NCBI GenBank assembly: GCA_002917075.1
Contig: NTMA01000003.1
Coordinates: 186,001 to 250,000, forward strand
From: Hawksworthiomyces lignivorus
Lineage: Eukaryota; Ascomycota; Sordariomycetes; Ophiostomatales; Ophiostomataceae
Direction: 5' to 3'
DNA: 64,000 nucleotides
In this document: positions 15,590-43,449 of the stretch, in pieces
Numbering within the stretch: the stretch's first letter is position 1
Layout of the letters: each line of letters opens with the position of its first letter
Made by a program: the position numbers and the translations under genes
Notes under the pieces: model-generated
The model's input: the letters and a program-made list of their open reading frames with translations, nothing else
Databases searched by the model: none
Told to the model about the DNA's origin: nothing

Positions 15590-16864
15590 CTATGCTTCAA
15601 CAGCCCGCAGAATCTCCATAACATGCTCCGCCTTGTGAATCGGCCGCGGATTGAGCGCTACTGAAAAATCATGCAGACTGTTCTCCGCTAGGTGCTGAAG
15701 CTTCTCATCCCCCTCTATGCCAACTTCTCGCAGCGTTCTAGGCATACCGAGTTCGCGGATGATAGCATCCAGCAGATCAGCAAGGTCGGCCGTGTCAGGT
15801 GCCAGGCCTTTGGATGTGAACAGCGCTGCGCAAGTGGGCTCATCCCAGAGTCCCGCGGCTAGGATGGCCTGTTTGTCGCCGTTCACGCCTTGATTGTACC
15901 GACACACCGCCGGCAGCAGCACGCAGCTTGTCTCGCCGTGCTTGACGCCCATAGGGCCCAGCATGTGACCGATGCCATGCGACGCCCCGGGAAAGCAGCC
16001 TCCCCACATGAACGGCGTGACCGTCAGTGCGACGCCGAGCTGCGCATGTAGACGGGCCGCGGCGCCTTTGCCGTCGTTGTCCCGGCTTGCCGCTAGCAAG
16101 CCAGGGACAAGCAGCCGCAGCCCGCGCAGACAGGTTTCGAAAACCTCGTCGCGCGAACCATGGCCGACCGCAATCTCAACGCCGTGGTCGATACCCCGCA
16201 CACCCGTCTCCAGCCAGATCGTGCTAGGTGTCGCCAGACACAGCCACGGGTCGAGAATCGTAACCGTCGAGCCGCCGGACGCAATCTGGTACTTGCGATG
16301 GGTTTTTTGGTCTGTGACGCCCGCTATAAAAGTGTGCTCGCCGCCAGAGAGGGATGTAGGGATCATAATGAGATTCTGCTTGTGGGGCACGATGGCAGGA
16401 AAGACGAGCTTCTTCTCCTCCGGGTGGCGGCGGATCTCGCACTTTGAAAGCGCTTCTACCGTGTCCAGCTCGTTGGCTGTCATTGCGCATATCATTTTTG
16501 CAGCATCAGCAAGCGAGCCGGCGCCTAGGCTGATCACCGTGTCGGCCTGCACAGCCTGCATGGCGTGGAACACCTGCACGCACTCCTCCAGCATCGTGTG
16601 CTGTGCCATGCCCATCTGAACGCCCTTTACGCGGTCTCCCAGAGCCGCTTTCAGTCGGTCGAGGGCATCCGTGTTCTTGCACAGGCTAGGACTAGCGAGC
16701 ACGAACACCTTCGCATCAGCACCAACGTGACGTGTGATGGCCTGGTCAAATGGCAGACCATAGCTAATTGTCGGACTGAATAGACCTGTGTTGTCTATCA
16801 ACTTGCCAAAGACCTCTTCGGTTGGCAGAGGAGTCGATGAGCTGACTTGCTGCAGAACTGACAT
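15590..16864 (-). CDS. iron-ADH superfamily dehydrogenase, maleylacetate-reductase-like
   Basis: A single exon of 424 residues. GAGSLADAAK (about 114-123) is the dinucleotide-binding turn of the Fe-ADH fold, and GASHGIGHMLGP (about 293-304) with KHGE (308-311) aligns with the conserved H-x3-H-x9-H segment. The first metal ligand of classic Fe-ADHs (Asp in GxDALTHAIE) is Arg223 here (TGVRGIDHGVE), while His227 stays. Loss of that Asp is also known in metal-independent maleylacetate reductases, which reduce maleylacetate to 3-oxoadipate in the hydroxyquinol branch of aromatic catabolism. It is the left flank of the metabolic island, but its promoter has no CGG-N7-CCG site, so joint regulation is unproven. 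Confidence 0.85.
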   Translation of the reverse strand: MSVLQQVSSSTPLPTEEVFGKLIDNTGLFSPTISYGLPFDQAITRHVGADAKVFVLASPSLCKNTDALDRLKAALGDRVKGVQMGMAQHTMLEECVQVFHAMQAVQADTVISLGAGSLADAAKMICAMTANELDTVEALSKCEIRRHPEEKKLVFPAIVPHKQNLIMIPTSLSGGEHTFIAGVTDQKTHRKYQIASGGSTVTILDPWLCLATPSTIWLETGVRGIDHGVEIAVGHGSRDEVFETCLRGLRLLVPGLLAASRDNDGKGAAARLHAQLGVALTVTPFMWGGCFPGASHGIGHMLGPMGVKHGETSCVLLPAVCRYNQGVNGDKQAILAAGLWDEPTCAALFTSKGLAPDTADLADLLDAIIRELGMPRTLREVGIEGDEKLQHLAENSLHDFSVALNPRPIHKAEHVMEILRAVEA

Positions 16865-18434
16865 TGCGTTATCGTATGTGTTGCTTTGAATTTTCCTTAT
16901 AAACCGTTATTGCTCGTTGAACACAAAACGGGTTTCTATGATCACAATTCTGAGCGACTTTAGCAGTGGCCAAGAGCGTATGGGAGTTGAGCAAATTTGT
17001 ACTCAACATTGTGCCTATGTTCTGCTCATTCACTCCGTTACCGACTCTACGCTCCTTGCCATGCTTCATCGAATTCATAGAACATGCCATTGTCTTGACA
17101 CAAGCATTTCAGATATTACATGAGACGGAAATGCAACCTCGGAATAAGGTATATGGCCACAGAAAACGGAGATAAAGCAATTGAAATCCGAAAACAAGAA
17201 TACAGAAATTGAAACCTCAAGGAGCCAACCAAAGCTCTGACATTTGGCATGTACAGTACGTGTTCGCTGGCTAGGCACGGGCCGCATCGGCGCCGACGGC
17301 TGCATTAGCTCCTTAGCAAGAATGATACAGCAGTTAACAGACAGTGCATAACTGCTATAGTCTCTGTCTTGTACTCTATCTCACAGTTTATAAGCTAGGC
17401 TCGAAAAGGTGAGCCTTGTGAATTAATCTGGAAGCTCAAATACCGAGGACACCGTTCCTTTCAGAGCCCATACATTGTCGTTCTATGTCCTACACCACTA
17501 CGGTCTGCCGATTTGCGATCAGATCGAGATTGTTCAAGAAAAAGTCCGGACTTAGGCGAATTCATTACTACATCCGTGGTGCATCAAGGATCTTACGTAT
17601 TAATCGACGCGCGTGGCAAGGTCAGGGTGTCTTTGTAGGGTCGTCTTCGGATGGAGAGTCCTGAAAAACCCGGCGCCGATGTCAGGCGAACAGCGAGGGT
17701 AACCATATAGTTCAAGTATGAAAAAGCATGATTTAACTTGGAAATTTGAATCTATGCTCTGAACCTTAATGCCCCCATGATGTGTCGAGACCCACTACCA
17801 GTTGGTTATATCAGACATCAGCTAATAGTCAAGACGCAGCAAGCTATCTCCGTCGAGAATTCCTATGAATCGAAACTTTCTGCTAACAGGAGTCCATTTA
17901 AATGTAGTCTAGGATCATATAGCTGAAATTAAAAATACAGAATATCGGTTGCTTCGGACCCACTGTTCACAGAATACAAAAATAGTTTTCGAAATCCGTA
18001 TCTTGTTGTGTTTAACTAATCTCGCGGCAGAAACAATGGCGACCCTCGAGGTAAGCATAATACTAGCTCATATTAACTATTTGCTGAATTCTCAACCCAT
18101 GGCATCAATAGAATTTTAAGCGAACAATCTCTGATATTACAAAGTCCGTGCCTAGGAAGCGTTTTGTTTACGCAGTTAACATAGCCCCGTCCCGTACGCT
18201 AATATGGGCGTCTTAATCGCACTGCATTCTATCCTAGAGTTTGGGTTGTCACTGCTGTCACGTATTTATAGTTTATGCTCATTCTTCAACATCTGACGAG
18301 TCACAGAATCATCTGCTGTTTTCAGACCGTAGTCGCTAGCTTGCTCGGTAACATAAAATTTGAATAAATATCTGCTACAAAAATTGCTTTAAGCCAATGG
18401 CGGATCTCAAAGAGAAGAATGGATGCTTTGCTAT

Positions 18435-18451
18435 CCGATTGCATCAATCGG
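18435..18451. promoter_or_regulatory. 17-bp palindrome upstream of amidohydrolase
   Basis: CCGATTG-CAT-CAATCGG is a perfect 7-bp inverted repeat with a 3-bp spacer, about 225 bp upstream of the ATG at 18676. An everted CCG...CGG arrangement is another known Zn2Cys6 site form. No second copy was noticed. Confidence 0.35.
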
Positions 18452-18519
18452 TGCCTTGCATTATTCTCCGAGTGCACTAATATATCAAAGCTGATATTCT
18501 ACGAGTGCTCCGCAATGTT

Positions 18520-18586
18520 CGGGTTTAGGCCGCTAAAAAGGTTTCTAGCGTCACGAACGTCCATATCGCGAGTCGGGAAATGCCCG
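18520..18586. promoter_or_regulatory. two CGG-N7-CCG sites in amidohydrolase promoter
   Basis: CGGGTTTAGGCCG at 18520-18532 and CGGGAAATGCCCG at 18574-18586, 144 and 90 bp upstream of the ATG. Their starts are 54 bp apart, three times the 18-bp spacing seen in two other promoters. CGG triplets in inverted orientation at fixed spacing are the standard target of Zn2Cys6 dimers; the gene at 27109-29364 is the obvious candidate. Confidence 0.65.
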
Positions 18587-18675
18587 TTGAATGCTAACCG
18601 ATAAATAAAAGCTAATAGTCATACACAGCCAAGCATACCAGTCTGTCACAGACAACCCCGAAGCGTGGAAGAGTA

Positions 18676-19702
18676 ATGTCTGCCAATACAGACGCCAATA
18701 TGGACACTGAATCTCTCTTCCCCGGGGGAGGCTGGGATACTCATCATCATATTTTTGAACGTAAGTGTGTGGCCATCCTGGACAGTTCGACCCATCTCTT
18801 CAACCACTATTTCTAACGACGTCCATATAGCCGAATTATTCCCATACAGCCCGAATCGACACTTGACTCCACCCGCAGCCACCATCAAGCAATATGAGGC
18901 GTTCAGAAAGCGTTTAGGTTTAACAAAATCTGTCCTAACTCAGGGCTTGTCTTATGGAAGTGACACGGCCTCCCTCAAGGCATTTATCTCTAGGCTGGGA
19001 GACGCGGTAGCTTCTGGTGTTGGTGTCATTGACCCAGAGTCGACCAGCGACGATGAAATTAAAGACTTGCATGCCAGCGGAGTTCGTGGTCTTCGCGTTA
19101 ATCTATATCGATATGGCGCCATGGAGGATGTCGACTTGCAGAAGAAAGCACTGTTGGCACATATGAAGAGGATTACAGATCTGTCGTTGCCGTGGAGTTT
19201 AACTATGACGACGACGCAGACCAAATTCTGGGATACACTAGAGCCCTTCATCCGCGATCATGTCGCGAGAGAGGGCAAGTCTTTGGTCACGGACCACCTC
19301 GCCTTGCTTAAAGCGCCGAGTATGCTTCCACCCGAATACCAGCAGGATCCCACCAGCCAGCCCGGGTTTGCGGCAATTATGCGGCTGGTACGCGACGGCC
19401 ATCTGTTCGTTAAGCTTAGTGCACCATACCGAGTGAGCAAGCTAGCTCCACATTACGAAGATCTGAAGTTCCTTGTGCGGACATTCATCGATGCAAATAA
19501 GCATCAAGTTCTCTGGGGAAGCGATTGGCCACATACACCACATATTAAAGTTCGGAGTCGTGAAGAGGCGCTCAAAGAACAGCCTTACCTAGAAATCGAC
19601 GACGAAGCGTGGCTTCGGAGTCTGAAAGCGTGGCTGTCCGATGAAGAATGGCACTTGCTCATGGTGGAAAATCCCAGTAAGCTTTTTGGACAATCATACT
19701 AG
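18676..19702 (+). CDS. amidohydrolase-2 family protein (lactonase-like TIM barrel)
   Basis: Two exons, 18676-18760 and 18831-19702, 318 residues. Splicing creates GWDTHHHIFEPELFPYSP, the N-terminal H-x-H barrel strand of the family. The C-terminal part has HLFVKLSAPYR and VLWGSDWPHTPH, whose Asp is the catalytic acid/base in the 2-pyrone-4,6-dicarboxylate lactonase (LigI) and sugar-lactonase branch. Length is typical. The likely reaction is hydrolysis of a lactone to a hydroxy acid in the cytosol. Two CGG-N7-CCG sites lie within 160 bp upstream. Substrate cannot be stated; decarboxylase members of the superfamily are the main alternative. Confidence 0.88.
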
Positions 19703-19921
19703 CAAATACGCACAAACTGTAAGCCTGAGAAGGCATCTCTTTACTTAACCCTCCATAGCCACGACTGCTTTCCTTTCCAGTGTTCTTTGCTACGATTAGT
19801 TCGACAAGCACACAAATATAGGCTCAGTACACTAGATTTTATCTAGGCTAGTTTTTCTGTATATTTCATATTATCTATTGATAGTGTACAGAAGCGATCA
19901 CAACCTCTTTTCATTTTCACT

Positions 19922-20364
19922 TTATTCCAGGGGGCTCGAGTCAATGGGCATGTCGTAGACGATAGTATCGGTGCAGAGAGACAGACGAATTTCCTGAACG
20001 GTTTTGTGCAAGGGATTAGGTCCATACGCGAGCACCGATTCCTCGTTGTCCATAACCGTCACAATTGCCATATCATATCCCTGTGCTCGGTGAGCTGTGC
20101 TGGGAAGGACACCACCCAATCTCCAGGATCGAAGGCCTTTGGGAATCAGTCAGTGTGAAATAAGTTGTCTTGCGAATCTCATTGGCAGCTAGTCATACCT
20201 GGCACCGGGCCAACCAGAGCCTCACCAGCTTTACGCAGCTCCGCAAGCTGGGCTTGAGTTACCCCTTGCTTGAGTTTGAAGAGAACTAGAACGTTTAATT
20301 AGCCTTTGTTAACGGCCGTCAATTTTTCATAACGAATACTCTTACCCATATGCAAGATTGCCAT
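19922..20364 (-). CDS. Dabb (stress-responsive A/B barrel) protein 1
   Basis: Three exons: 20364-20346, 20285-20199 and 20136-19922, 106 residues. The spliced start MAILHMVLFKLKQGVTQ is the signature first strand of the dimeric alpha+beta barrel (Dabb) fold, and YDMAIVTVMDNEESVLAY is the second half. The first exon is only 19 nt and stops after HMG-phase 1, exactly as in the second Dabb gene at 25980-26511. Dabb and related ferredoxin-like barrel proteins include small isomerases, cyclases and monooxygenases. Two CGG-N7-CCG sites lie 99-130 bp upstream. Role inferred from context only. Confidence 0.85.
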
Positions 20365-20462
20365 TTTGGATACGTTAGGTAGTCCTGTGTTTGTTTAGCG
20401 CACTATGCTTTATGTTTCCAAGCTAGATGGGAAGGCATAATATAAATATGAAAGTGCAGCTC

Positions 20463-20493
20463 CGGCGTTTCGCCGGATAGCGGCTTTAGGCCG
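20463..20493. promoter_or_regulatory. paired CGG-N7-CCG sites in Dabb-1 promoter
   Basis: CGGCGTTTCGCCG (20463-20475) and CGGCTTTAGGCCG (20481-20493), starts 18 bp apart, 99-130 bp before the ATG at 20364. Each is almost perfectly palindromic, so they look like hairpins, but spacing and recurrence in neighbouring promoters favour regulator binding. Confidence 0.7.
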
Positions 20494-20778
20494 CCTAAAG
20501 TACACACTAATAAAAAAGGCCAGGTAAATCTCTTCGAGATAACGACCTTATCTTGGTGGCCAACTATTTACGATATATCGAGAGTATGAGATTAGCTATA
20601 TTCTGTGTCTACTACGGCAGCTGAATTGTATTATTAGTCTCTCTGCAGCTATTTCTATCTTAGATTATGGCTAACTTTCGTGGTTGGTTTGGGACTAATT
20701 TGCAGGAGCCAAAGTCTTACCGTATTATAATGCCCAGAGACATAACTATAGCATTGTAAAATAGTACTTTTATTTATC

Positions 20779-20799
20779 TTTTTTTTTTTTTTTTTTTTT
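20779..20799 (+). repeat. T21 homopolymer
   Basis: A run of 21 T lies about 150 bp downstream of the Ldh2 gene end, which faces it. It may be the degraded tail of a retroposed element or just a slippage tract. Confidence 0.7.
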
Positions 20800-20945
20800 G
20801 CTGGAGTAAGCAGTGTTATTTTGCGGGCTTCGCAGGCGAAACTAAAATCTTCAAACTACAGAGTGAGATGAAAATAAACTAGTTTGTTAGGGTTTAAAAT
20901 ACAGCTTCGAAGTCTGGTGATGTTCCTATGGCAGTGATTGAATTC

Positions 20946-22028
20946 TCAATTCGAGTTCTTAGTACCAATCGCATCTGCGCCAACCCGCTTGGCTTCTTCA
21001 TTCAAAGTCTGAATTTCCGCTTCTACATACGGAATTCCAGTCTTGAGCCTCGCTTCCTCATTTAACTGCTCAATCTCCCCAGGCATATAGATTCGTTCGA
21101 CGCCAGGGGCCTTCTCCGACCCTGTAACTCTCTGATATAAATAGGCCATGCGTTCCTTGAATTCGTCGATGCTCATAAATAGGTCAGGCTTGATCGCAAT
21201 AAAGAAGTGGCCGACATCTGAGGGCTTCGACGGATCGTATGGGCCGGTTACATGGCCAGCAAAGGCGGAACCGGATAGCACGCCAGAGAATACGTCCATC
21301 ATTATGGCGAGCGCGCTTCCCTTTGGCCCGCCCATTGGAAGCATCACGCCTTTCAAGGCTTTCGCAGGGTCGTCCGTGGGATAGCCTTCTGCGTCCAATG
21401 ACCAGTCTTTTGGAATCTTCTCGTCTCTTCTCAACGCCTTGTAAATCTTTCCTCTGGCAGCCACGGATGGAGCCATGTCCAGTATGAATGGCCTCTCCTT
21501 GCCCGGGGCGCCGCAGGCCATCGGCGAGACGCCGATAAGTTTCTGCTTGCCTCCCCACACGGTCATCGCTGGGCTGGAGTTTGTGAACACGAGGCTCATC
21601 ATCCCTGCGTCGGCCGCTTGCTGAGCAATCCAGGCGCTCATGCCAAAGTGGTTTGAATGCTTTATGCTGACCATGCCGATGCCGAATGTCCGCGCCATCT
21701 CAACCGCCTTGTCTATGCCTTTGCTCGCGGCGAGAAAACCAAATCCGTTTTTGCCGTCCACCTGCGCCACAACGGGAGTGACTTCTTGGACGGTCGGAGT
21801 TGCAGCGGGGTCCAACACCCCCTCCCTGATGCGTGCCATGTACGAGGGGATGCGGTTGATGCCATGCGTGTCTACGCCGCGGAGGTCCGCAGCAACCAGG
21901 CACCTGGCAACAATGGCGGCATTCTCCGCAGGCACACCGTTCCCTTTGAGCACGCCTTCCGCAAAAGCTCTTGCCGCTGCGGCATCGACATAGTACTTTT
22001 TCGATTCTGAAGTCTGCTCGCCAGCCAT
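20946..22028 (-). CDS. Ldh2/MDH2-type 2-hydroxyacid (malate/lactate-like) dehydrogenase
   Basis: Single exon, 360 residues, the normal length of the family. AADLRGVDTHGINRIP places the conserved proton-donor His at residue 55, and IKHSNHFGM (about 122-130) is the second signature block; GGPKGSALAIMMDVFSGVLSG near residue 230-250 is the nicotinamide-binding part. Members use NAD(P) with 2-hydroxy/2-keto acids such as malate, ureidoglycolate, sulfolactate or 2,3-diketogulonate. No targeting peptide is obvious, so a cytosolic enzyme is likely. Three CGG-N7-CCG sites upstream tie it to the cluster regulator. Exact substrate unknown. Confidence 0.92.
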   Translation of the reverse strand: MAGEQTSESKKYYVDAAAARAFAEGVLKGNGVPAENAAIVARCLVAADLRGVDTHGINRIPSYMARIREGVLDPAATPTVQEVTPVVAQVDGKNGFGFLAASKGIDKAVEMARTFGIGMVSIKHSNHFGMSAWIAQQAADAGMMSLVFTNSSPAMTVWGGKQKLIGVSPMACGAPGKERPFILDMAPSVAARGKIYKALRRDEKIPKDWSLDAEGYPTDDPAKALKGVMLPMGGPKGSALAIMMDVFSGVLSGSAFAGHVTGPYDPSKPSDVGHFFIAIKPDLFMSIDEFKERMAYLYQRVTGSEKAPGVERIYMPGEIEQLNEEARLKTGIPYVEAEIQTLNEEAKRVGADAIGTKNSN

Positions 22029-22159
22029 GGTAATTTCTATTGGCGGTGCTTCTGTTTGCTGTTTCTGCCTCGTCGGCGAGACTAAGAAGTTGAATTACAA
22101 ACAGCTGCTGCACGAAATTATATTTTCCCAAAAGTGGCAGAATTATGACGTGCCATTAT

Positions 22160-22190
22160 CGGTGAGTCTCCGTAGTACGGGTCAAAGCCG
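22160..22190. promoter_or_regulatory. paired CGG-N7-CCG sites in Ldh2 promoter
   Basis: CGGTGAGTCTCCG (22160-22172) and CGGGTCAAAGCCG (22178-22190), starts exactly 18 bp apart as in the Dabb-1 promoter, about 130-160 bp upstream of the ATG at 22028. Confidence 0.7.
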
Positions 22191-22415
22191 AGGATCTCAT
22201 CGTGAGCACCACACGTTCACATTAGGGGCTAGCATGTCACATAGAAAACTCGAGTCAAGTCAAGAAATTTCTGAGAATGGCTGCTTCACGTGCGTAAATA
22301 ATATCAAAACGTATTTTTGTCAGATTCATTAAACAAAATCCCTGCTTGGTTTTCTTTGTCTTGACTACCCCGAAAAGTATCTGGAAATATCTCTACTGTT
22401 CAATAGGCTTGGCAT

Positions 22416-22428
22416 CGGGCAAAACCCG
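22416..22428. promoter_or_regulatory. CGG-N7-CCG site, distal Ldh2 promoter
   Basis: CGGGCAAAACCCG lies 388 bp upstream of the Ldh2 ATG and about 110 bp before the tRNA-Phe gene. Third site in this promoter. Confidence 0.5.
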
Positions 22429-22534
22429 AGTGCGGTAGGCCATGTGGGCCGAACTGTACTGACGGTCGTGACGGTGTAGCAGCATGTTCATGGGGAATTG
22501 ACCGGAATTAACTGCGCCGTACATCACAACAGCA

Positions 22535-22550
22535 GCGGGGATAGCTCAGC

Positions 22551-22582
<32 letters not shown>

Positions 22583-22607
22583 GGGTGTTCGATCCACCCT
22601 CACCGCA
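22535..22607 (+). tRNA. tRNA-Phe (GAA)
   Basis: A 73-base cloverleaf without intron. Acceptor GCGGGGA pairs with TCACCGC (one G-A mismatch at the fifth pair), D arm TAGCTCAGCTGGGAGAGC, anticodon stem TCAGA/TCTGA around CTGAAGA (anticodon GAA), T arm GGGTG-TTCGATC-CACCC, discriminator A. CCA is absent, as in eukaryotic genes. T7 at 22653-22659 is the first plausible Pol III stop. It sits between two cluster genes and could act as an insulator; that is inference. Confidence 0.93.
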
Positions 22608-23098
22608 CAAAATTTCAAAACTTGTGTATCTCATACATACAGGACGTCTTCATTTTTTTCTGATTTTTTTTTTTTTGGACCTAGGGGGTTCCACCTATTT
22701 AGGTGGAGATGACCCGGATTGTCTCGCAAGTACGGTCAAACTCTAACCTATTTCTTGACTGTCTTGCTCTTTAGGTAGAGTGCACTTGTACTTAGCTGAT
22801 CATGATCCATGGAAAAGAGCTTTTCTAGTTGTGCGTCTCTATGGAGCAGGGAGCAAATCTGGACGGTATTTAATAAGCCTTTTGAAAGGTGGACACGGCA
22901 TTGATGGTATATTCGCAGTTGCTATTCTAAATACATCTGCTCCTGACTCCTGTTTCTTCACCTCCAGCTGCTCACGAAGCCCACACCACTCTGTCCCGAA
23001 ATGAATTGATTGCTCCCAAGCTTTGTCTCTGTTCCATATTGTAGAATCCGTTGCCATACCGATTAGGAAATCTTCTGTAGAGTACTTGGCCTCTTTAT

Positions 23099-24834
23099 TT
23101 ATGCGGTGTAGCGGAAAGCTGCCTTCCTCTCCTCTCTTTCATCAGATGAGATACCCTCTACTTCAGCCTGAGACTGGCCCCGCATGACACTGCCAACGCT
23201 GGCGCCTGAATCAAGCTTCTTGTTGGCACGAAGAAGAGTGATACGCATGAATAGAGCAAGAAGAATGGTCGCTAGGGCGAAACCAGAGTTGACGGAAAAT
23301 GCAAGCACATAACGAGGCTTAGCAGAATCAGGATAGAGATAAGATGTCCAGGTCTAGTAGTTGCAGAATAGCAACGTCAGTATTACAGCTAGAATTCCTT
23401 AAGAGCTGGAGAGAGCTTACCTGTGATGCCGTGCCAATCGCGTTAACAAAGGCAACGGCCGCTGCTCTCTTGATCCGGGGCCTGAGCATGGTCTTTTGCG
23501 TCCATGCCAAGACGACCGAGTTGGCGCCATGGCCTCCTCCTATCATGATCATCATGGCAAAGTACCTGCTGCCTGTGGCTTTCGTGGCCGCAGCGAGCAC
23601 AAAGCCGAGAATAGCAAGGGCCATTGGCCACATGACGTGAAATGAGGCGTTGTTGTGCCGATCAGCGGACCAGTTGTTGCAGACAGAAATAATGAGAGCC
23701 AGGCAGTACGGCGGCACTGTCAGGAGAAGCGTAATAACCGGGTCATAACCGAGAGTTTGAACAACTGTTGGGAAGAAGTTTTGAGTAGCAGAGGACACCT
23801 GAAGACAGAAGAACATGAGCGCAAAGACATAGACGCGCCAGTCTGAAAAGCTCAGCTTGAAGCCTTCGCTCCATTTCCCGCCGTCTTCGTCAACTTGGCC
23901 AGCATCTTTAATCAGCCTCCACTCTGCGACGGCTTTTTCTGTGGGGTCGAGCCAGCGAGTTGTCGTAGGCCAATCCGGAAGAGTAAAGGCAGCGACTATG
24001 GCAATAACGATCGTGATAGAGCCTTCGATAATGAACAGCCATCTCCATGACTCGAGGCCACGAGCTCCATTTAGGCCGGACTGAATTCCAGCACCTACCA
24101 ATCCGGAGAAGGCGCTTCCAATCTGGGTTCCGGTAAACAGCAGCGCGCTTCGGAAACTCAGCTCAGATCGTGTATACCACGAAGAGATGAGAAACAGAGC
24201 GCCGGCTGTGATTTGATGAATGTATGGTTAACAGTGTCTGTGAGACTAGAGCGGTCATCAGTATCTTTATACTCACGAAAGTAGGCGGCTTCAGCAATGC
24301 CAATAAAAAATCGAACAACAACGAGGCCAGCATAGTTCTGAACGATCCCGGTTAGAGCTGACATCAAGCCCCAGGCTCCCATACAAAGTGGGAGATAGAC
24401 AGAAGGACGCAGTTGAGCGAGGAAGACGTTGGATGGTATCTGGACGACGACGTAACTGGCGAAAAGAACTGCAACAGCTGTAGAATATTCTTTAGACGAC
24501 AGGTGCAATGTAGACGAGATGCCCGCAACTTTCGCTGCAGCAATGTTGTTCTGTGTAGAATTGTCTATTGTCAGTACATTGACAACTTGATGGGAGCACA
24601 GCGTTCCCTTACCCTGTCAAGAAAATTCATAATGTACATAAGCCACATGATCATCAGAAGCCGTACATCAAGCTTCTTCTTGAGCTTTTTCTCCGTGTCC
24701 AAGAATTCCTCCTCGGACATCGCACGCGCTGGAGTCAGTCTGTTTGCAGTCTGCTTCATGTCAGACGCATCAGCATCCCCGTGGGAGGCCATCTCCCGCA
24801 ACTCAGCCTCGACCGAATTCTTTTGAGCGGCCAT
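23099..24834 (-). CDS. MFS carrier, Dal5-type anion:cation symporter
   Basis: Four exons: 24834-24613, 24550-24277, 24205-23421 and 23353-23099, 511 residues. Joining exons 1 and 2 creates MNFLDRNNIAAAKVAGI, the family's LDRxNI-xA-xxxG signature at the first transmembrane helix; about 12 hydrophobic segments follow with a central cytoplasmic loop (residues about 240-290). The start is the ATG giving MAAQKNSVEAEL, followed by a hydrophilic cytosolic tail. This family (allantoate, tartrate, nicotinate, pantothenate carriers) imports organic anions across the plasma membrane. Three CGG-N7-CCG sites and a GC palindrome lie upstream. It is likely the uptake step for the cluster substrate. Confidence 0.9.
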
Positions 24835-25033
24835 ATTAGCAGTAAACTTAAAGAACAAGAAGGTTCTTAATTCGGTGAGGGATAGTATTGCAAAGTAAAT
24901 CTCCGCTTCCTCTCGGGGGGAGCAACGTGCACGAAGCTAGGTCATATAAATACTGATCATTGCTGTTCACCGTAGTGTTGCATAGTTGCAACGAGGCTAG
25001 TGAAACTTTCATGCACCCTTTTTTTTGCCTTTC

Positions 25034-25047
25034 TGCGGGGCCCCGCA
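25034..25047. promoter_or_regulatory. TGCGGGGCCCCGCA palindrome
   Basis: A perfect 14-bp palindrome about 200 bp upstream of the carrier ATG, 28 bp from the nearest CGG-N7-CCG site. It could bind a different dimeric factor, for example a GC-box or stress-element protein. Confidence 0.4.
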
Positions 25048-25074
25048 TGGGGAAAAGGACGTTGTAGACTCGGT

Positions 25075-25118
25075 CGGATCAAAACCGGTCGTGTTGTGGT
25101 GTAGCCGGGTTCTCACCG
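25075..25118. promoter_or_regulatory. two CGG-N7-CCG sites in carrier promoter
   Basis: CGGATCAAAACCG (25075-25087) and CGGGTTCTCACCG (25106-25118), starts 31 bp apart, 241-284 bp upstream of the ATG at 24834. Confidence 0.65.
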
Positions 25119-25557
25119 AGAGGGCCAATTAGAGGCGTATCCCAGCCAGTTGGACAAAGAAAGCCATTTTAGACAGTCAGGCTTCCCTGACTTGTGCTTA
25201 TGCTTTGATCTAGCCAATACACAACTTCAAAACAGTACAACTTGAGGACCTGCCGTTTTTCCGAATATGATCGGGTGTCTGCATCCTCTAGGGCAATACT
25301 CAGAATATTTTGAATATGTCTCTGCTGGCAGCTGCAGTTGTATCCATATTTGCTTTGTTCTATTTTCCTTTCACTGTCACTCAACGTCATCTTTTCAGGT
25401 TGCTTCTTCCTGGAAAGAAAAATTTGACTAAAGGTACAGGACGTATACGTTCAAGTATGTGAGTATTGCCGAGATACTCATGATACTACCCGTCCATATT
25501 CATTGCGCCACTGTGGTCATATTCTCAAGGCTATGAGCCCATGAGAGCTGTTGGTTT

Positions 25558-25570
25558 CGGCCAAATCCCG
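25558..25570. promoter_or_regulatory. CGG-N7-CCG site between carrier and Dabb-2
   Basis: CGGCCAAATCCCG, 724 bp upstream of the carrier ATG and 410 bp beyond the 3' end of Dabb-2. Read on the minus strand it is CGGGATTTGGCCG, sharing the CGGGATT start with the sites at 26736 and 29571. Confidence 0.5.
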
Positions 25571-25979
25571 ACCTTGGTCACAAGATACGACATATCTGAC
25601 TCGTATTCTGGTTGCTCTTGGCGTCTTATGTTCATCCCATCTCCAGAAATAAGATTAGCTCTGGTTATCTGCATTGTTTCATGTAATAATTTAATCACTG
25701 ATGACTAGCCCTCGTCCCGAAATTATACCACTCTTTTTCAGTAAAATATTCACAAAAAGACAAATAACAACGAGTACTAGCAGGTTTAATGTCTGGGATA
25801 ATCCGCTTAAAACAGTTGCTACCTTATTCAGCGCTTGGGAGAAAGTCTGAGGTCTACAAAAGCAGTTTTAATAATGCTTAATGCTTGCGCAAGTTCGCGC
25901 AAGTCTCCGAAGTCAAGGAGACCTTGCATCTACCCAGAGCTACTCTATTATATAATTTGGTGGCTGTGGCTATCTATGT

Positions 25980-26511
25980 TCAGTCGCTCTCACTGGGAGT
26001 TTTTATTCCGTTGGCCTTCGCTAATTGCCCAAATATGCACATGTACTCATCCTCTTCAGCGACCTCGAAATCGAATCGGCAAAGGTCCTCCTTGAAAGGG
26101 AACATGTAAGTCTGGGTTACCCTACAGATAAATGTCGAGTTATTAGATAAATGCCACCGCACCTAGACATTGAAGTTTTTGAAGATAACTTACCAGTGGT
26201 GCTCCTTGCTTGCCTGATATTCGTCAAGCGCGGCACGGTTCTCATGGAAGCTAAGCAATGCATACTCGAATCCTTTGCTTCTTTCAATCGGATCCGTCAC
26301 TGATGGCCCACCCACAATAAGCCTATTATCTTTAACACATGACAGATTCTTCAGCTTCTTCAGCTCGCGGACGAAGGTGTCTTTATGTTCCTGGGTAACG
26401 CTCGCTTTGAAGCGGAAGAAAACTGAAAAGGTAAGTACAGGATACTTGGTGTGTCTCCGGAATTCAGATGTCGCCTTGCTGTATTTACTTACCCATGTGG
26501 ACGATCGTCAT
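25980..26511 (-). CDS. Dabb (stress-responsive A/B barrel) protein 2
   Basis: Three exons: 26511-26493, 26422-26194 and 26121-25980, 129 residues. It begins MTIVHMVFFRFKASVTQEHK and includes FEYALLSFHENRAALDEYQ, the two strand-helix halves of a Dabb barrel, followed by a C-terminal extension rich in acidic residues. Its 19-nt first exon and phase-1 intron position match the first Dabb gene, so the two are probably old duplicates although their sequences have diverged. One CGG-N7-CCG site lies 225 bp upstream. Function is unknown; an isomerase or cyclase acting on a pathway intermediate is plausible. Confidence 0.85.
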
Positions 26512-27108
26512 TTTTCTTGTAGATAAAGATTGGCTTTGTTGAATAGATGATCTTGTTAAGCAGATAATCCTGCAAGTCCATATGCAGATGACAATGGCAG
26601 CTAATTATAACTATTAATGCGATCTAAGATACAACAGCATCAAGAGACGAGAAGGGGAAGAATAAAGGGGAAGACATGAATGGAGTATAAACTCATACCT
26701 TTAAGGAGACAAATTACTTAGCGCCATCACTGCACCGGGATTCTACCGATGATAATGGCTTCGGTCATCTCGGAACTTGGCCTGTTTATTTTGTGGACAG
26801 GCCAGTGTGGACCCTCCTTAATATCATTATTTCTTTCATTTTTTACATTTCCCTAGTGGCCCTGGGTACGATAACCAGCTTCAATTCTTCCGTAAATTGC
26901 GCCTCAACGACTGCTGTAAGTTGACAAAAAGCAGAGACCTGATACTAGTTCCAAGACGGTAGTTCCCCTCTCAAATCGCCGAGAAAGTTTCGTTTCTATA
27001 CTCGCACAGCTTTTGACAGTAAGTATTTAGAATTAGGAAGCCACCCGACCGTAAACTGTTACCGATTTGGCTTTAATCAGAAACGAATTGTTTAATAGAT
27101 CTTGTAGT
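26512..27108. other. Dabb-2 promoter and regulator 3' flank
   Basis: The spacer holds one CGG-N7-CCG site and no gene. Confidence 0.5.
26736..26748. promoter_or_regulatory. CGG-N7-CCG site in Dabb-2 promoter
   Basis: CGGGATTCTACCG, about 225 bp upstream of the ATG at 26511. It shares the left seven bases CGGGATT with the site in the regulator/aldolase promoter. Confidence 0.6.
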
Positions 27109-29364
27109 TCAAGATGGTTCATAGCCAGCCAGTTCTCCACGTTCCGTATTGATCATCCAGTCAAGATCGAACCATCCACTAATATCTTCGAGTTCGTTAT
27201 AAAAGAACTGAGAGTTATTTACATCACTCCCGTCAACTCCAAAGAAATCCAAGCCTCCTATGATTTGGGCCGAAGGAAGCGCTGGACAATCAGGAGGCCG
27301 TTGCATGTTTAACAGAGAATGGCTCGCAGCAACTTCGTCGCTGCCGCACTCATTTAGACTTGATTTCCACGCGCTGATAGTCAGCTTGGCAAGGCGGTCG
27401 AATCGAGTCAGAGCGTCTGCAGCGACAGTCCAAGTCTTGCCTAGGTAATTCAGTAGGCCAATGCAGGCAGAGGTGTGGCTCTCCAGTGACTGCAGGGAGG
27501 TCTCCTTCTTGATTTCGGGTTTTGTCCAGACGCAGTAGATGAACGTGATTCCGCTGATGAAGATTTTATGCGCCATCAGCCAGCTGTTCTCCAGCTTGGA
27601 GAAGCGATTCAGCTCGGCGGCAATCAAAACCGTCTTCACGGCGCTGGCATAGCATATTTTCCAAGATTCGAGACCGGGTCGTGGCGTAGCTGGCGACGGC
27701 CTGTGCAGCAGCATGACGCACTGGTGGTACTTGATTTCAAGATGCTGAAGCGTCCCATCTGCTACACCTCTCGGGCTCCATTTCAGATCCCTGAGCATCT
27801 CTTCCAGCAGCTTCTCACATCGGCTGTGAGCATCTTTTTGCCATTCCGCCGTGACAGGCAGCCACGGGAAATAGCCTGGTTTGTTAACAACGCGGTAGAG
27901 CATAAGTTTCATTTCCGCAGCCAGCTGATCGAGGCGGAAGGAATAATATGCCATAGTGTAAGGAGAATCCGTCATTCGCCTCCGCTTTGCCAGGCGGTCG
28001 GATATGAGCTGATCCGCATCTGACTGGGTTCTGTCTTCAAGCTGCTCGATTCCGGGGAACTCAATGTCTGTAGCCTCGTCGCGCAGTGTTAATGGTCTGC
28101 CGAGAACGACGGCCAGCGTCCGTTCTAGAGAATAAGCAGACCAGAAGATGCCTCTCCTCACATTTTTGTATGCTTGCAAAGATTCTCCCTCAATGTGTCT
28201 ATTTGATGGAACATCGACCAGTTTTCTCTGCAGACCAAGATCAAGGACGGCAGCTATAATGTTGGAGGTCAAAAACCAAGCATTTGGGCCATCAATGAAG
28301 CACAGGCTACAGAGAGTGAGCAGGAGCAAAATCTGTAGTCCGTCCATGGTATCGTGCAACAGTATGTTGTCAATTCCGGCCATTGCTGTAGCTAAGTACC
28401 TCTCGGATGAGAAGTCTGCCGACAGCCTCGGTTCGAGTGTGCGTGCTCCAATAGCGATAACAAGTAAAATCTGGCCGCAGTGAACCGGCGACAAGGCTTT
28501 GGTAAAGTCTTCCAGTCTAGGCCTGCGAATAGCATGTGAGTCATGAGGCTGTTGCGAGAAAACACTGCTGACGCGTGTGAGAATTGTTTCCTCGTCTAGA
28601 AAAGGATACAGCGGCTGATAGGTATCGAAGTAAGCGCTGACGAAATGCTTCAAGTCTGCATCAAAAGTCCAGTTTTGTGGAAATGGTTCTGGGCGTGGGT
28701 GTTGCTTGTCGAACGAGTCATCGCCTGGTGTTGCCAGGCTTGTAGGGAGACCCTGGGACTGGGGAATGGCATTGAGGATCAGCCGGGCGAAGGGCACGCC
28801 CGATGAAGGCCCAAGGTACTTGGGCTCATTTGTGCTAGTGAGAGAAAGAAGCCCTACTTCATGAGCCAGAGGCTCTGAGGGCTTGATCTGGCTGGTTGAT
28901 GCGGCCGTGCTTCTGGGAGTGGTTGCGTCGTCGTGAGGGGTATGTCGCTCTTGGTGGCCGATGTCGAGAATCGTCGGGTCGTATGTATTTGAGGAATCTG
29001 TCCCCCAATGCCTATGGACGGGGAGAGTGTTGGTGGAATCAGAAGAGCTTTGCGGGCTGAGGATGGGTCCAAGTCTCGAAGTCTCGATTGGGGAGGCTGG
29101 CTTTGGAATCTCCACCACGGTTTCCTGCCGGGACTCTGCTCGGCGAAGGGCTTCCTCGAGCAGCCAGACGCGCGCCTCTAGCTGGTGGATGTATCCTGCC
29201 GTCTCTTGGTCGGCAGCATGGTTCAGTCGCACACACGGCTGGCCTGCCTTGCTGCAGTTCTTGCATGCGGGTTGGGTGTCGTCGCACCGGATCTTTTGGG
29301 TCCGGCAGCGGACACAAGCCGTGCCTTTCTTTCGGCCTGCCGTCTGTAGTTTATCAGCCACCAT
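27109..29364 (-). CDS. Zn2Cys6 (Gal4-type) transcription factor
   Basis: Single exon, 751 residues. The zinc cluster is complete: C17-x2-C20-x6-C27-x6-C34-x2-C37-x6-C44, preceded by basic residues, then a predicted coiled-coil dimerisation helix (YIHQLEARVWLLEEALRRAE, about 58-77). A fungal-specific middle-homology domain begins near HFVSAYFDTYQPLYPFLDEE (about 235-255) and runs to about residue 500. A nuclear, DNA-binding dimer is expected. It is divergent from the aldolase; the 349-bp intergenic region carries two CGG-N7-CCG sites, one 97 bp from its own start, suggesting autoregulation. It is the natural reader of the 13 sites across the cluster. Confidence 0.95.
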   Translation of the reverse strand: MVADKLQTAGRKKGTACVRCRTQKIRCDDTQPACKNCSKAGQPCVRLNHAADQETAGYIHQLEARVWLLEEALRRAESRQETVVEIPKPASPIETSRLGPILSPQSSSDSTNTLPVHRHWGTDSSNTYDPTILDIGHQERHTPHDDATTPRSTAASTSQIKPSEPLAHEVGLLSLTSTNEPKYLGPSSGVPFARLILNAIPQSQGLPTSLATPGDDSFDKQHPRPEPFPQNWTFDADLKHFVSAYFDTYQPLYPFLDEETILTRVSSVFSQQPHDSHAIRRPRLEDFTKALSPVHCGQILLVIAIGARTLEPRLSADFSSERYLATAMAGIDNILLHDTMDGLQILLLLTLCSLCFIDGPNAWFLTSNIIAAVLDLGLQRKLVDVPSNRHIEGESLQAYKNVRRGIFWSAYSLERTLAVVLGRPLTLRDEATDIEFPGIEQLEDRTQSDADQLISDRLAKRRRMTDSPYTMAYYSFRLDQLAAEMKLMLYRVVNKPGYFPWLPVTAEWQKDAHSRCEKLLEEMLRDLKWSPRGVADGTLQHLEIKYHQCVMLLHRPSPATPRPGLESWKICYASAVKTVLIAAELNRFSKLENSWLMAHKIFISGITFIYCVWTKPEIKKETSLQSLESHTSACIGLLNYLGKTWTVAADALTRFDRLAKLTISAWKSSLNECGSDEVAASHSLLNMQRPPDCPALPSAQIIGGLDFFGVDGSDVNNSQFFYNELEDISGWFDLDWMINTERGELAGYEPS

Positions 29365-29713
29365 GATCCGGGATTACCAATTGGAGAGCAGACACGATAT
29401 CTAATATCGGGGCATCTGCGAGGTTCGCGTCGGCAATGAAGAGGCGGGGCTTCAGACAAGCGGCAATCCGCCGATTTATACAGTAAAGAGCTTTCTCAGC
29501 TAGCCAGCATTTTGCTCCGCAACTGTACATTGACAATGCCGATTTAGCGTATAAAGGTCTCACACCTGACCGGGATTGCTCCGGGACCAGAGAATTTGCC
29601 AAGCCCACTAAAACAAGGTAGCTTTGCTTTTTAAAGGATTCTGTCTGCGAAAGCAAGGTCGACTTCCAATTAGTTAGTCTTCTTGAGCATGATCTTCGAG
29701 CCAATACGCAACT
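29365..29713. promoter_or_regulatory. divergent regulator/aldolase promoter with two CGG-N7-CCG sites
   Basis: CGGCAATCCGCCG at 29461-29473 (97 bp from the regulator ATG) and CGGGATTGCTCCG at 29571-29583 (131 bp from the aldolase ATG). One site sits near each start, fitting bidirectional control by the encoded regulator. Confidence 0.7.
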
Positions 29714-30705
29714 ATGGCGACCTTTCCACAGAACAACCGAACCTTTAAAATTCTGGAGGCAGCTAGAAATGGTAACTACGCTGTTGGCGCATTCAACTGG
29801 TACATTGCTGACTCGTGATAATGTTTCATGTGCAAATCAAAAGAGGATGCTGACTTTGTCACAGTTACAACGAAGATGGTGTTATTGCAGTCATCCGGGC
29901 CGCCGAAAGCTGCCGCTCGCCAGCCATAATACAGCTATTTCCATGGACCATGGAGTTCCAGGGACTCGCATTCATCAAATATGTTGTTGAGGCAGCGCAT
30001 TCCGCCATGGTCCCTATTGCGGTGCACCTCGACCACTGTATTCAGCCTGAGCATGTCGCATTGGCACTCAATTATCCATTCGACTCGATCATGATTGATG
30101 CGTCTGTCAAAGATCCTGAAGAGAATATTGCCCAGTGTAAACAAATCGTCGAGACTGCGAACTCAAAAGGCATAGCCTTAGAGGCTGAGATGGGTCGAAT
30201 CGAGGGCGGCGAGGACGGCCTCCCAATCGTGAACTTGGAATCCATTCTGACGGAACCAAGTGCCGCAAGACGCTTTATGCAAGAAACGGGTGTTCAGTTT
30301 CTGGCTCCATCATTTGGCAACATCCATGGGTCTTACGGGCCTGGAGGACCGGAAAAATACTGGAAACTTTCCTTGTGAGTCAAGAGGCTGGACCAACGTG
30401 ACAGGACCATATCAGCTTATCATAAATCTCGTAGGCTGAGGGAAGTCCATGATGCAATTCCTGATATTCCGCTGGTGCTGCACGGTACACACCCAGTTTC
30501 CGATGAGCTCTTTGTAGAAGCACGCAAAGCCGGCATTACCAAGATTAACTTGAACCGGACAGTGCGCGATGAATATTCTAAATTTGTCGCTGAAAATGCC
30601 GGCAAGCTAGAACTTACAGTTCTTAAAATGAAGGCTGTTGAGATATATGCCAAGTCAATCTCCAGGGTCATGAATGGATTCTTAGATTCAGCAGGTAAAG
30701 CTTGA
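29714..30705 (+). CDS. class II (zinc) aldolase-like protein
   Basis: Three exons, 29714-29799, 29865-30374 and 30435-30705, 288 residues, the length of fructose/tagatose-bisphosphate aldolases. Family blocks visible are GAFNCYNEDGVIAVIRAAE (built across intron 1), VHLDHC (metal-binding His and neighbouring Asp), LEAEMGRIEGGEDG, and VLHGTHPVSDELF. The usual phosphate-binding GGSG after LHG reads GTHPVSD, and the usual NIDTD reads NLNRTVR, so the second phosphate pocket is altered. It may therefore cleave a non-bisphosphate hydroxy-keto acid. It is co-located with, and shares a promoter with, the Zn2Cys6 regulator. Confidence 0.9.
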
Positions 30706-31178
30706 ATTAAGAGAACAGACTACCAGGCGTTAGTCTTTGCAGGCAAACTATTATCATCGTCTCAATAATTCGTTGCATCCAGAGCTTTCTCACGTATACG
30801 TCTTAAGACATCTAGGCTTCTCCACTACATAGTCCAGATTTTTCCTGAGAATCTTGGGCCACCTTTGAAAGCACGGTATGACTATTCAAGCTGTATTGAC
30901 ATGGCGATATGGTGGTAAAATTTGTTCGGAGCCGTCACTGGGCTGTGAAGAAGGCTGTTCGAAGAGTCTCATAACTCCGCTTGGGTTGCAGAGAAGTGGG
31001 AACCGAGGAAGCCTAGAAACGCTCGTGTTCACGATTTAATGATTAATAAACCCCCGCATATAGGTCTGTTGTCTTTCACTTTGGAGTGTGCGCTATGTTC
31101 ATCTTGATCCTGTAGTCATCGAATCTGAATCATCCCAGCCCATGGTAAGAGCCGCTACCCTGTATCGCTCTGTTCGTC
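30706..31178. other. spacer aldolase to tautomerase
   Basis: No gene and, by eye, no CGG-N7-CCG site, so the tautomerase may not belong to the regulon. Confidence 0.5.
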
Positions 31179-31768
31179 ATGCCTTTGTATGAAATCACCC
31201 ACATTGCGCCTCTCTGCTCAGACCAGAGAGACCATCTCGCATCCTCCATCACAGACATCCATTGCCGAACCTTTAATGTACCTCGCCTTTATGTAAATGT
31301 CATTTTCACAGATGCATCCAGCCAGCCGGCATATGTCGGCGGGCGACTGGTTAGTCCCCTCTCCTTCATCCCCTGTTTCCGAATGCATTTTTCTTACGAT
31401 GGCAGCATCTCACAAATCGAATAACGGCTCGAGTACGCAACGGACCGACTCGCAATCGAGAGCTTTTCAATGGCCTGTGCCGCGACCTCGACGCCACCTG
31501 GCGCTATATTGTGCACCCAATCTTTTCAGGTGAAAAGCTCCCCCCGCCGGAATTGGAACTGGGGGCCATATTTATCACTGGCGAGCTGCTAGCAGGTATG
31601 AAGTTCGGGTTCCCTGTTCCAGCTGCTGGGGAGGAAGCAGCTTGGGCAAAGGAGCATTATGTTGAATTCAAGAGGAGGGCAGCTCTTGGTGACGAAGACT
31701 TTGTCGATTTCGTCGCAGAGCTGGATCGGAAACCGGGATTTAGTCAGCCTGTAAATAAATCAATTTAA
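31179..31768 (+). CDS. tautomerase-superfamily protein (cis-CAAD-like)
   Basis: Two exons, 31179-31349 and 31406-31768, 177 residues. The N-terminus MPLYEITHIAPL puts Pro2 next to the initiator Met; after Met removal this is the catalytic proline of 4-oxalocrotonate-tautomerase-type enzymes. Joining the exons restores NRITARVRNGPTRNRELFNGL and LDATWRYIVHP, conserved in the long fungal tautomerase-3 group, followed by EAAWAKEHYVEFKRRAALGDEDF. The donor is GTTAGT (weak) and the acceptor CAG. Probable cytosolic keto-enol tautomerase or hydratase on an unsaturated acid, which would suit a ring-cleavage pathway; substrate unknown. Confidence 0.85.
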
Positions 31769-32147
31769 AGAGAAATCATGGAGGTTTAGTGTCATAGTAT
31801 TGTTGACTTGAGAGTTGTCTCGTGTGTTATTAATTTTATTTTAATCTATGTCTAATATTATTATTCAACCTCGCGTAGCCTCCATAAATTCACCCATTTT
31901 CCGTCTCTATCCGTCTATACCCAAAACCAAATAATTAAGTCAGTCTATCTATAATAGTAGTAGCAAAAGAAAACCCATGAAGCAAGCCATTCTGTATCTG
32001 ATCCCCAAACTAAAAATGCGACACGTAAAATGCATTAAAACTTTTTTTGTTTTGCTGCCCTTCGACTGCTTGTGACCAGTTCCCATGTAGCAGAATTCGT
32101 AAAGGGCATAAAAGGCAGCCGTCATAAGAAGAAGCCAAGACGGCTGC
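31769..32147. other. convergent 3' flanks
   Basis: An AT-rich spacer between converging tautomerase and MFS genes; nothing else seen. Confidence 0.5.
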
Positions 32148-34159
32148 TCAAACATTACTTTTCTCCGTCACGGGCGTCACAACGTCGCTTGAGATGGGAA
32201 CATCCACGATGGTGTCATCTTCTTCGTCCAGCCAGCCCTCGCGGTCATCCTTGGGCACCCGCACAAAGGCAAAGTCAAGCACCAAGGCGGCGACCGCCAG
32301 GGCGGCGGCGAAGTAGAGCGCGGCCCGGTAGCCGTAGACGGAGGCATCGACGCCCGGGCCGCGGTTCTTGGTCAGCTGCGTCTCGATGGTGGCGGCGAAG
32401 CCGAGGCCCAGCGAGCCGCCGTAGAGGTTCAGCGTGCCGATGAGGCTGCCGGCGACGCCCTGTTGGCGGCGGGTGACGCTGTTGCTGGCGATGATCTGGG
32501 CGGCGACGTAGACAAAGTCGGGGCAGATGCTGCTGATGGCAATGGCCGGGAAGGTCTGGGCCCAGTAGGTCTGCTGGGCGGGCTGCGTGGCCAGCAGCAG
32601 GTTGCCGGCCAGCACGGCGGCGAGACCCAAAGCCATGATCCACTGGGCGGGCAGCCGGGGGATGAGCCAGGCGGCCAGGCCGACGGAGAAGGTGGCGCCG
32701 ATGGGGAAGGGGATCCAGCTGACGGCGAAGTCGACGAGGCCCCAGCCGCGCACATTCTGCTGCCAGGCGGTCACGTACCACAGGGAGATAGCAAAGGACA
32801 TAAAGTTGAGCAGGACCACGGCGATGAGCGCCGAGAACGTCGGAGCGCGGAAGACGCTCAGGGGCATGATGGGGTCGGCGGCGCCGCGCCACTCCCACAG
32901 CACAAAGGCTGTGTACATGACCACGGCGCCGACCAACGTCCCGATGGCCGAGGAGCTGTTCCAGCCCGACGAAGGAGCGTCACTGGCAAACCGTTAGCAG
33001 CTGCCGCACACCGCGGACGAAGAGCGCCAGACTCACTTCCAGGCATAGCTAAAGAGCATCAGGCCGCCCATGCCGAGCACCGCACCCAGATAGTCGACCT
33101 TGCCATTTTTGTCGACGACAAGTCTTCCTGGGCTCAGAAGGCAGAGACCAACAAAAATGATGGCAGCAAGAATGGCCCTGGCATTTGAACCGTTAGCGGA
33201 TAACAAAAGAAAACTGTTTCTGAGGAAGGATATCCTTACAAGAAGAAAAAGGTCCACTTCCACGACGCATACTCGGTGAATACGCCACCGAGAATGATGC
33301 CGGTAAAGCCACCAATAGGCCCGGCGGCGCCAATGAAGCCGAGCGCAATGTTGCGCGACCGGCCAGGCCGCACCAAAATTGTGATGACGGCGATGGCATT
33401 CGGCATTCCCAGGCCACCACCGACGCCGCTCAGGGCACGCACGGCGACAAAGCTGTTGTACGACGTGCAGAACCCATTTGCGATTGAAAGGACGACACAG
33501 ATTGCGATGCCGATACGGACCATGAGATGGTGGCCGTAGATGGCGCCAAGCCGGCCGCTGACCAGTACGACGGCGCCTTGGGTGAGCCTAGAATGTGTTA
33601 GATTAAAGATGCCACAACATGGCGAGGAAGAACGTACGAGTATGCAGCAGGCATCCAGTTGGCCGTGCCTGGACTGCTGTCATGGCCCAGGAGGGCGCTC
33701 AGCTTCAGGCCTGCACCGATTGTGATTGCATTGGAGACAAACTATGATTATTATTGAACCCCTGTCAGTAAGGAATAAATTTGGAGTAGTTCAGATAATT
33801 AAGAGAATTTAGATTCATTTCGGTATTTTAATTTTTTAATTCTTTTTTAAGTTTAATTTTTACTGAGCTTCTCCTCATTTGGTGGCTAAAAAATTTCCTA
33901 TTTCGCAACCACTTACATGTACAAGATTCGCAAGTACAACCAGGACAATGATCATATTCTTCGAATGCCTAGACATCAAGGCCTGCGACAGCTGCGTCGG
34001 ATTTGGCGGTGGTTCATCGCGGGGCCTCAAGACAGGCGATGCTAGCGCCGTGGTGGCCTCGGACGAGGAGGGGAGGGGAGATCCATCTGGTGAAAGTGCA
34101 CCCGGCGGCAGGGCCACGATTGATACGTTAATGGTGTCTTTGGTGGTAGTGGTGCCCAT
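32148..34159 (-). CDS. MFS transporter, DHA2-like multidrug/export family
   Basis: Five exons: 34159-33917, 33741-33638, 33587-33240, 33177-33037 and 32982-32148, 556 residues. Motif A appears as VSGRLGAIYGHHLMVRIG after splicing; VRALSGVGGGLGMPNAIAVI and ALGFIGAAGPIGGFTGIILGG are typical of 14-helix drug:H+ antiporters. A cytosolic N-tail (MGTTTTKD...) and an acidic C-tail (DEEDDTIVDVPIS) flank the membrane domain. An upstream in-frame start at 34294 would add 45 residues but reads like leader. Role: plasma-membrane efflux of small molecules, substrate unknown. No cluster regulator site is in its promoter, so it is probably outside the catabolic regulon. Confidence 0.88.
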
Positions 34160-43224: not shown

Positions 43225-43414
43225 ATGAGTTTCGAAAAGCAATATGGCGTCACGCCGCCGCTCTCGACGGAAATGCCCACTGAGGAGCAGCGCCTACAGA
43301 CCGATGCGCTTCTTGAAGAGCTGCGGCAGCAGGGAACCTTCGAAAGCACGGCCGAGACGCAGAAACGGTAGGAATTTTTCCTAGCGAAGGACGACTTGGA
43401 ATTGCTGCCCCAAT

Positions 43415-43449
<35 letters not shown>

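Follow-up and report, generated by a model that had tools for sequence, protein, structure and literature searches.

The seven-gene cluster and its CGG-N7-CCG sites

Seven genes form a cluster at 18.5–30.7 kb of the window, the 64,000-nucleotide stretch of the Hawksworthiomyces lignivorus genome analysed here (contig C115, positions 186001–250000), and copies of one motif, CGG-N7-CCG, an inverted CGG repeat with seven bases between its half-sites, stand in front of them. On the plus strand, the first gene (18676..19702) encodes an Amidohydro_2 family protein (PF04909, E 9.5e-24) and has an intron, placed by eye, at about 18.77–18.83 kb; the query used for it was the open frame 18677–19702, whose first ~50 residues fall outside the reading frame of the gene or within the intron. 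It is followed on the minus strand by Dabb-1 (19922..20364; PF07876 above cut-off at 19946–20137, stop and introns by eye), the gene of an Ldh_2 family dehydrogenase, hereafter Ldh2 (20946..22028; PF02615, E 1.8e-130), the intron-containing gene of a Dal5-type major facilitator superfamily carrier (23099..24834; PF07690, E 8.8e-21 for the main exon, stop by eye), Dabb-2 (25980..26511; PF07876 above cut-off at 26196–26423, stop by eye) and the gene of a 751-residue Zn2Cys6 factor (27109..29364; PF00172 and PF04082). The intron-containing gene of a class II (F_bP) aldolase (29714..30705; PF01116, E 1.2e-51 for the main exon, stop and introns by eye) completes the cluster on the plus strand. For the carrier and the aldolase, a single main exon served as query.

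The original prediction listed 13 CGG-N7-CCG sites (N7 sites) and placed at least one in every promoter of these genes. All 13 starts proved exact, each reading CGG, seven bases and CCG, and a site lies 90–241 bp 5' of the ATG in seven of seven genes. The amidohydrolase promoter carries sites at 18520..18532 and 18574..18586 (144 and 90 bp from the ATG), and that of Dabb-1 at 20463..20475 and 20481..20493 (99 and 117 bp). In the Ldh2 promoter there are three, at 22160..22172, 22178..22190 and 22416..22428 (132, 150 and 388 bp; a tRNA-Phe gene starts about 0.1 kb beyond the last). Sites at 25075..25087 and 25106..25118 occupy the carrier promoter (241 and 272 bp), another, which may or may not act on the carrier gene, stands 724 bp upstream of it (25558..25570), and a single site at 26736..26748 serves as the Dabb-2 promoter copy (225 bp). 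The factor and aldolase genes diverge from one common promoter holding two sites, one 97 bp from the factor ATG (29461..29473) and one 131 bp from the aldolase ATG (29571..29583). Two adjacent sites are found in four promoters, with gaps of 41, 5, 5 and 18 bases.

Within the span 18450–29710 (11,261 bp) the motif occurs 18 times: the 13 intergenic sites and five exonic ones missing from the original list, at 21522, 23739, 28110, 29118 and 29309, within exons of the Ldh2, carrier and factor genes. A comparison across spacings, proposed with the original prediction and run here within the span, found N7 alone enriched. For N0–N20 in its intergenic DNA, the count was 13 for N7, two each for N4 and N11, and zero or one for every remaining spacing; the other 20 spacings reached at most five in total and averaged 0.5 between genes. 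Genome-wide there are 12,738 N7 sites in 43.7 Mb (191 contigs), or one per 3.43 kb, a rate that predicts 3.28 in 11,261 bp (P of at least 18, 1.4e-8). With the mean of the other spacings as baseline, the probability of at least 13 intergenic sites is 1.2e-14. The whole window holds 38 N7 sites compared with 19.6 (standard deviation 4.45) in 100 shuffles, none of which reached 38.

A scan of the window found no N7 site at 14252–18519 and none at 29584–44188, and these two intervals take in all the stretches that had been described as site-free. The right-hand one is 14.6 kb long; about 4.3 sites would be expected in it from the genome rate.

The cluster sites also share a composition. Of the 13 intergenic sites, 11 have A or T as their centre base, compared with 23 of 50 N7 sites in a 200-kb background sample from contig C1 (16 of 29 among those with four or fewer G/C inside) and with one of 20 N7 sites in the window outside the cluster. 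Sites whose inner bases are at least half A/T number 14 in the span and 18 in the entire 200 kb. The exonic site at 23739 (CGGGTCATAACCG) resembles the promoter sites in being A/T-centred. A long internal consensus was rejected as weak against 12 null draws. We also rejected a separate CGG-N8-CGG direct repeat, of which there are eight intergenic copies: seven turn out to be N7 sites in which one more C or G makes CCGG, and the one not explained in this way lies at 23048.

The Zn2Cys6 factor and its predicted action

The protein encoded at 27109–29364 has the traits of a Gal4-type Zn2Cys6 regulator: an N-terminal zinc cluster (PF00172, 35.3 bits, cut-off 21), a Fungal_trans middle domain (PF04082, 77.4 bits, cut-off 23), a recognition lysine, and inverted CGG half-sites in the promoters of its presumed targets. 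Among solved structures its residues 1–71 best match PPR1 of S. cerevisiae (PDB 1pyi, E 7.5e-11), and the alignment extends across the linker into the putative coiled coil (an LE.R stretch) with one residue missing. Between Cys2 and Cys3 the factor reads RTQKIR, so that the lysine corresponding to Gal4 K18 is present and the K17 position is occupied by Q; the roles of these two Gal4 residues are taken from PMC4245848. Of the original proposal, the sites before all seven genes, their single spacing and the presence in the cluster of a Zn2Cys6 regulator, which is of the PPR1-like type, are supported.

PPR1 is a homodimer that reads CGG-N6-CCG, UaY sites likewise have six bases between the triplets, and the targets of the two are pyrimidine and purine genes. 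The linker, counted from the last Cys up to the coil, is 17 residues long in the factor and 18 in PPR1. Among its 57 best homologs, 33 have a complete zinc cluster (24 were dropped by the pattern), and in those 33 the linker measures 17 residues in 27, 18 in two and 21 in one, three being unscorable. A further 63 listed homologs, 33 of them with a complete zinc cluster, have linkers of 13 (nine), 16 (eight) or other lengths (seven), with nine unscorable; an earlier zinc-cluster pattern had scored more 16-residue linkers in this group. Relatives of the factor were found in Thozetella, Xylaria, Hypoxylon, Fusarium, Diaporthe and Colletotrichum, which fits, like the introns, with a filamentous ascomycete; the 16-residue linkers belonged to homologs from Aspergillus and Penicillium. 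A search of viral contigs gave no match. The linker is described as dictating the length between the triplets (PMC4245848), and the clade with 17-residue linkers is a candidate seven-base class. The one-residue difference may be what sets seven bases apart from six, and the pairing of a 17-residue linker with seven-base spacing would make a clean test case for linker-set spacing.

Taken together, the sites and the architecture of the factor make it probable, in our view, that an autoregulated Zn2Cys6 homodimer controls the seven-gene cluster from a seven-base-spaced inverted repeat. The CGG-N7-CCG sites would be the binding sites of the factor encoded among them. We infer that two molecules, joined by the coiled coil just past the zinc cluster, would each take one CGG in opposite orientation, with the half-sites seven bases apart and an A/T-rich middle preferred. 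Binding would occur mostly 90–390 bp 5' of start codons, often at two close sites, and the bound factor would activate the genes for the amidohydrolase, both Dabb proteins, the Ldh2 dehydrogenase, the carrier and the class II aldolase. It would also activate its own gene, a positive autoregulation; an autoregulated factor had been predicted earlier, and the two sites in the divergent factor/aldolase promoter speak for it. The inducer is most likely a sugar-acid or lactone-like carbon source. The cluster thereby gains a candidate regulator, a precise DNA code and a predicted list of targets that includes distant loci.

Several observations weigh against this interpretation or against the pattern behind it. 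N7 sites are not enriched genome-wide, the reversed pattern being more frequent (19,238 compared with 12,738), and one-mismatch N7 sites show no excess in the span (nine; range 4–20 for N2–N15). The inner seven bases are weakly conserved, at 3.0 bits compared with 1.8–2.9 in 12 random draws. The spacing read by PPR1, its closest solved relative, is N6, which occurs once in the span and never between genes. DNA-binding regions of other factors in the genome are 36–42% identical to that of the cluster factor over 45–71 residues (the 42% match is on C21), and such factors could conceivably recognise this site as well. Finally, when the densest 11,261-bp stretch was taken for each spacing in the C1 sample, other spacings peaked at 20 (N0 and N11) and 17 (N8), and in the window left of the cluster N2 peaked at 19 and N14 at 18. 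A total of 18 thus does not by itself set the cluster apart, and CGG and CCG are frequent words in this genome, as an explanation by chance and composition would have it. The peaks elsewhere are not N7, however, which reaches at most nine per 11,261 bp in the C1 sample, and what is unusual at the cluster is that a single spacing is concentrated in 43%-GC noncoding DNA, in promoters, with A/T centres and at the probabilities given above. With the spacing control and the background sample both disfavouring it, we regard chance as a very improbable source of the pattern.

The sites might instead serve one or more Zn2Cys6 proteins encoded elsewhere, for example a broader sugar-acid regulator, with the factor in the cluster merely one of the targets. 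The genome holds 61 matches to the factor, including those with similar DNA-binding regions, and a global regulator would also account for the similar site pairs at unlinked loci described below. Against this, the promoter of the cluster factor itself carries sites, and no close full-length paralog of it was found in the genome, the next relative by score being 28% identical (60 of 152 candidates scored). Fungal catabolic clusters, moreover, frequently contain their own regulator. We therefore consider control by an outside factor unlikely, if less so than chance. A gluconeogenic element of the AcuK/AcuM type would share the seven-base spacer: its known sites are CCG-N7-CCG, two CGG triplets in direct orientation read by two distinct cooperating proteins (PMC12719309). 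Direct N7 repeats occur twice in the span and not at all between its genes, which leaves very little room for such an element here.

Control by the cluster's own factor would place it among known regulators with which it shares some features and not others. Its zinc cluster, linker and putative coiled coil align with those of PPR1 and its presumed half-sites are likewise inverted, but it differs from PPR1 and UaY in spacing. RhaR and PDR-1, the L-rhamnose regulators, are Zn2Cys6 proteins of non-phosphorylating sugar-acid catabolism that read an inverted CGG repeat with a spacing of 11 (PMC4245848 and PMC5469009). The present system is like theirs in factor type, repeat orientation and probable kind of catabolism, whereas the eleven-base spacing of RhaR and Gal4 is rare here (three N11 sites in the span, two of them intergenic, compared with 13 for N7). 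TerR, of the terrein cluster, is likewise a Zn2Cys6 factor encoded within the cluster that it serves, where most promoters, though not those of terG, terH and terI, carry its sites, but PMC4360782 describes a direct CGG repeat with a five-base spacer, no coiled coil found and inverted half-sites left unrecognised. FUR1 of Trichoderma reesei, an L-fucose regulator with many targets (PMC12370193), also governs a dehydratase/aldolase sugar pathway and differs in its motif (CCGACGG) and enzymes. Reading of inverted CGG repeats by Zn2Cys6 pathway regulators is thus already known, and we found no description of the N7 spacing: a literature text search for CGG-N7-CCG (as CGGN7CCG, CGGNNNNNNNCCG and CGG N7 CCG) covered spellings without brackets and returned no mention, so that the spacing may still have been published.

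Sites at unlinked paralogs

Outside the cluster the genome encodes 16 paralogs of its enzymes (three Ldh2, seven aldolase and six amidohydrolase), and some of these also have N7 sites nearby. Pairs of A/T-centred N7 sites with gaps of 1–45 occur at 56 places genome-wide (21 + 35, complete lists) and the reversed pattern at 42 + 49, so that the pair shows no enrichment across the genome. Four of the 16 paralogs have such a pair within 2 kb, where 0.10 would be expected (P 3e-6); this pattern was chosen post hoc, once sites at paralogs had been seen. A pre-set pattern (any centre, gap 0–30; 290 places in the genome) gave at least two compared with 0.51 expected (P 0.09), with eight of the 16 paralog loci read and the first 50 of the 290 places known. 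Across nine loci totalling 34.9 kb, eight of enzyme paralogs and one of the factor's nearest relative, N7 sites numbered 21 compared with a mean of 12.6 for other spacings (P 0.018), and those with at least half A/T inside 12 compared with 3.5 (P 3e-4).

On contig C139, two N7 sites lie between diverging RraA-like and amidohydrolase genes (locus L043, 234296–237913), and the closest paralog of the carrier, at 68% identity, is about 7 kb away. Both the amidohydrolase and the carrier matches on this contig contain stops, which may be introns or signs of decay. This carrier gene shares a second C139 locus (L039, 243001–253000) with an Ldh2 gene preceded by two N7 sites, a Dak2 domain and the gene of an ATP-grasp protein resembling D-Ala-D-Ala ligase. 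The Dak2 domain (L039:3335–4554) is preceded by a short, weak Dak1 match alone, and this Dak-like kinase may be broken by introns or decayed. Five N7 sites fall within 1.5 kb at L039:7930–9403, where there is no clear gene. On C68 (L038:3578–7359), N7 sites at 5833 and 5885 separate an IlvD/Edd dehydratase gene from an Ldh2 paralog (67%) and lie directly upstream of the former, whose partial query matched dihydroxy-acid and L-arabinonate dehydratase models under cut-off. C108 also carries an A/T-centred pair, 1.3 kb 5' of an amidohydrolase gene. The closest paralogs of the amidohydrolase (51%) and of the aldolase (63%) are on C1, where the locus of the first is free of N7 sites and that of the second has one.

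The original prediction had called the factor cluster-specific, with the boundaries of its regulon marked by the sites. The boundaries hold in cis, where both flanks are free of sites, but not as stated, given the pairs at the C139, C68 and C108 paralogs; by the same token, cluster-specific is probably too narrow a term, the extension being itself post hoc. A multi-locus regulon is plausible. The fullest version of it, to which we give an even chance, is that the regulon run by the C115 regulator takes in three or more unlinked loci (C115, C139, C68 and perhaps C108), with paralogous and missing steps scattered from an ancestral cluster and tied together by an A/T-centred N7 repeat, whose readers, a clade with 17-residue linkers, would stand apart from the six-base class of PPR1. 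In Diaporthe ilicicola (P0040), a single gene model fuses an aldolase, a Zn2Cys6 factor and a D-Ala-D-Ala-ligase-like ATP-grasp protein, and in models from Diaporthe amygdali and Colletotrichum the fusion is of factor and ATP-grasp ligase. These are probably neighbours joined by annotation, which suggests a former common cluster of ligase and factor, since broken up in this genome. Should the genes on C139 and C68 belong to the regulon, the pathway would be split or duplicated across the genome yet coordinated by a regulatory code, and the extended regulon would supply candidate missing steps towards the substrate, a sugar-acid dehydratase and a second aldolase.

Probable pathway and neighbouring genes

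The enzymes of the cluster and of the extended set look like those of sugar-acid or lactone breakdown, judged by the families to which they are nearest. For the amidohydrolase, the nearest solved structure is a 2-pyrone-4,6-dicarboxylate hydrolase and the nearest NCBIfam model, far under its cut-off, is 4-sulfomuconolactone hydrolase. The Ldh_2 protein is near three models that all stay under cut-off, those of L-sulfolactate, ureidoglycolate and 3-dehydro-L-gulonate dehydrogenases, and the carrier is closest to the D-galactonate transporter subfamily of NCBIfam, again under cut-off. Besides the class II aldolase of the cluster, the extended set would contribute the dehydratase, an RraA-like aldolase and the Dak2 domain. 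Dabb matches number five genome-wide, two of which are those of the cluster.

An Fe-ADH family gene (15590–16906) adjoins the cluster on its left, with no N7 site in its 5' DNA. Since there is none at 14252–18519 or 29584–44188, both this gene and the right-hand genes, transporter-like by eye, lie outside the regulon in cis; the Fe-ADH gene may nevertheless be a pathway member outside the regulon. The tRNA-Phe (GAA) gene, at 22535–22608, lies within the cluster, flanked by the Ldh2 promoter and the carrier gene.

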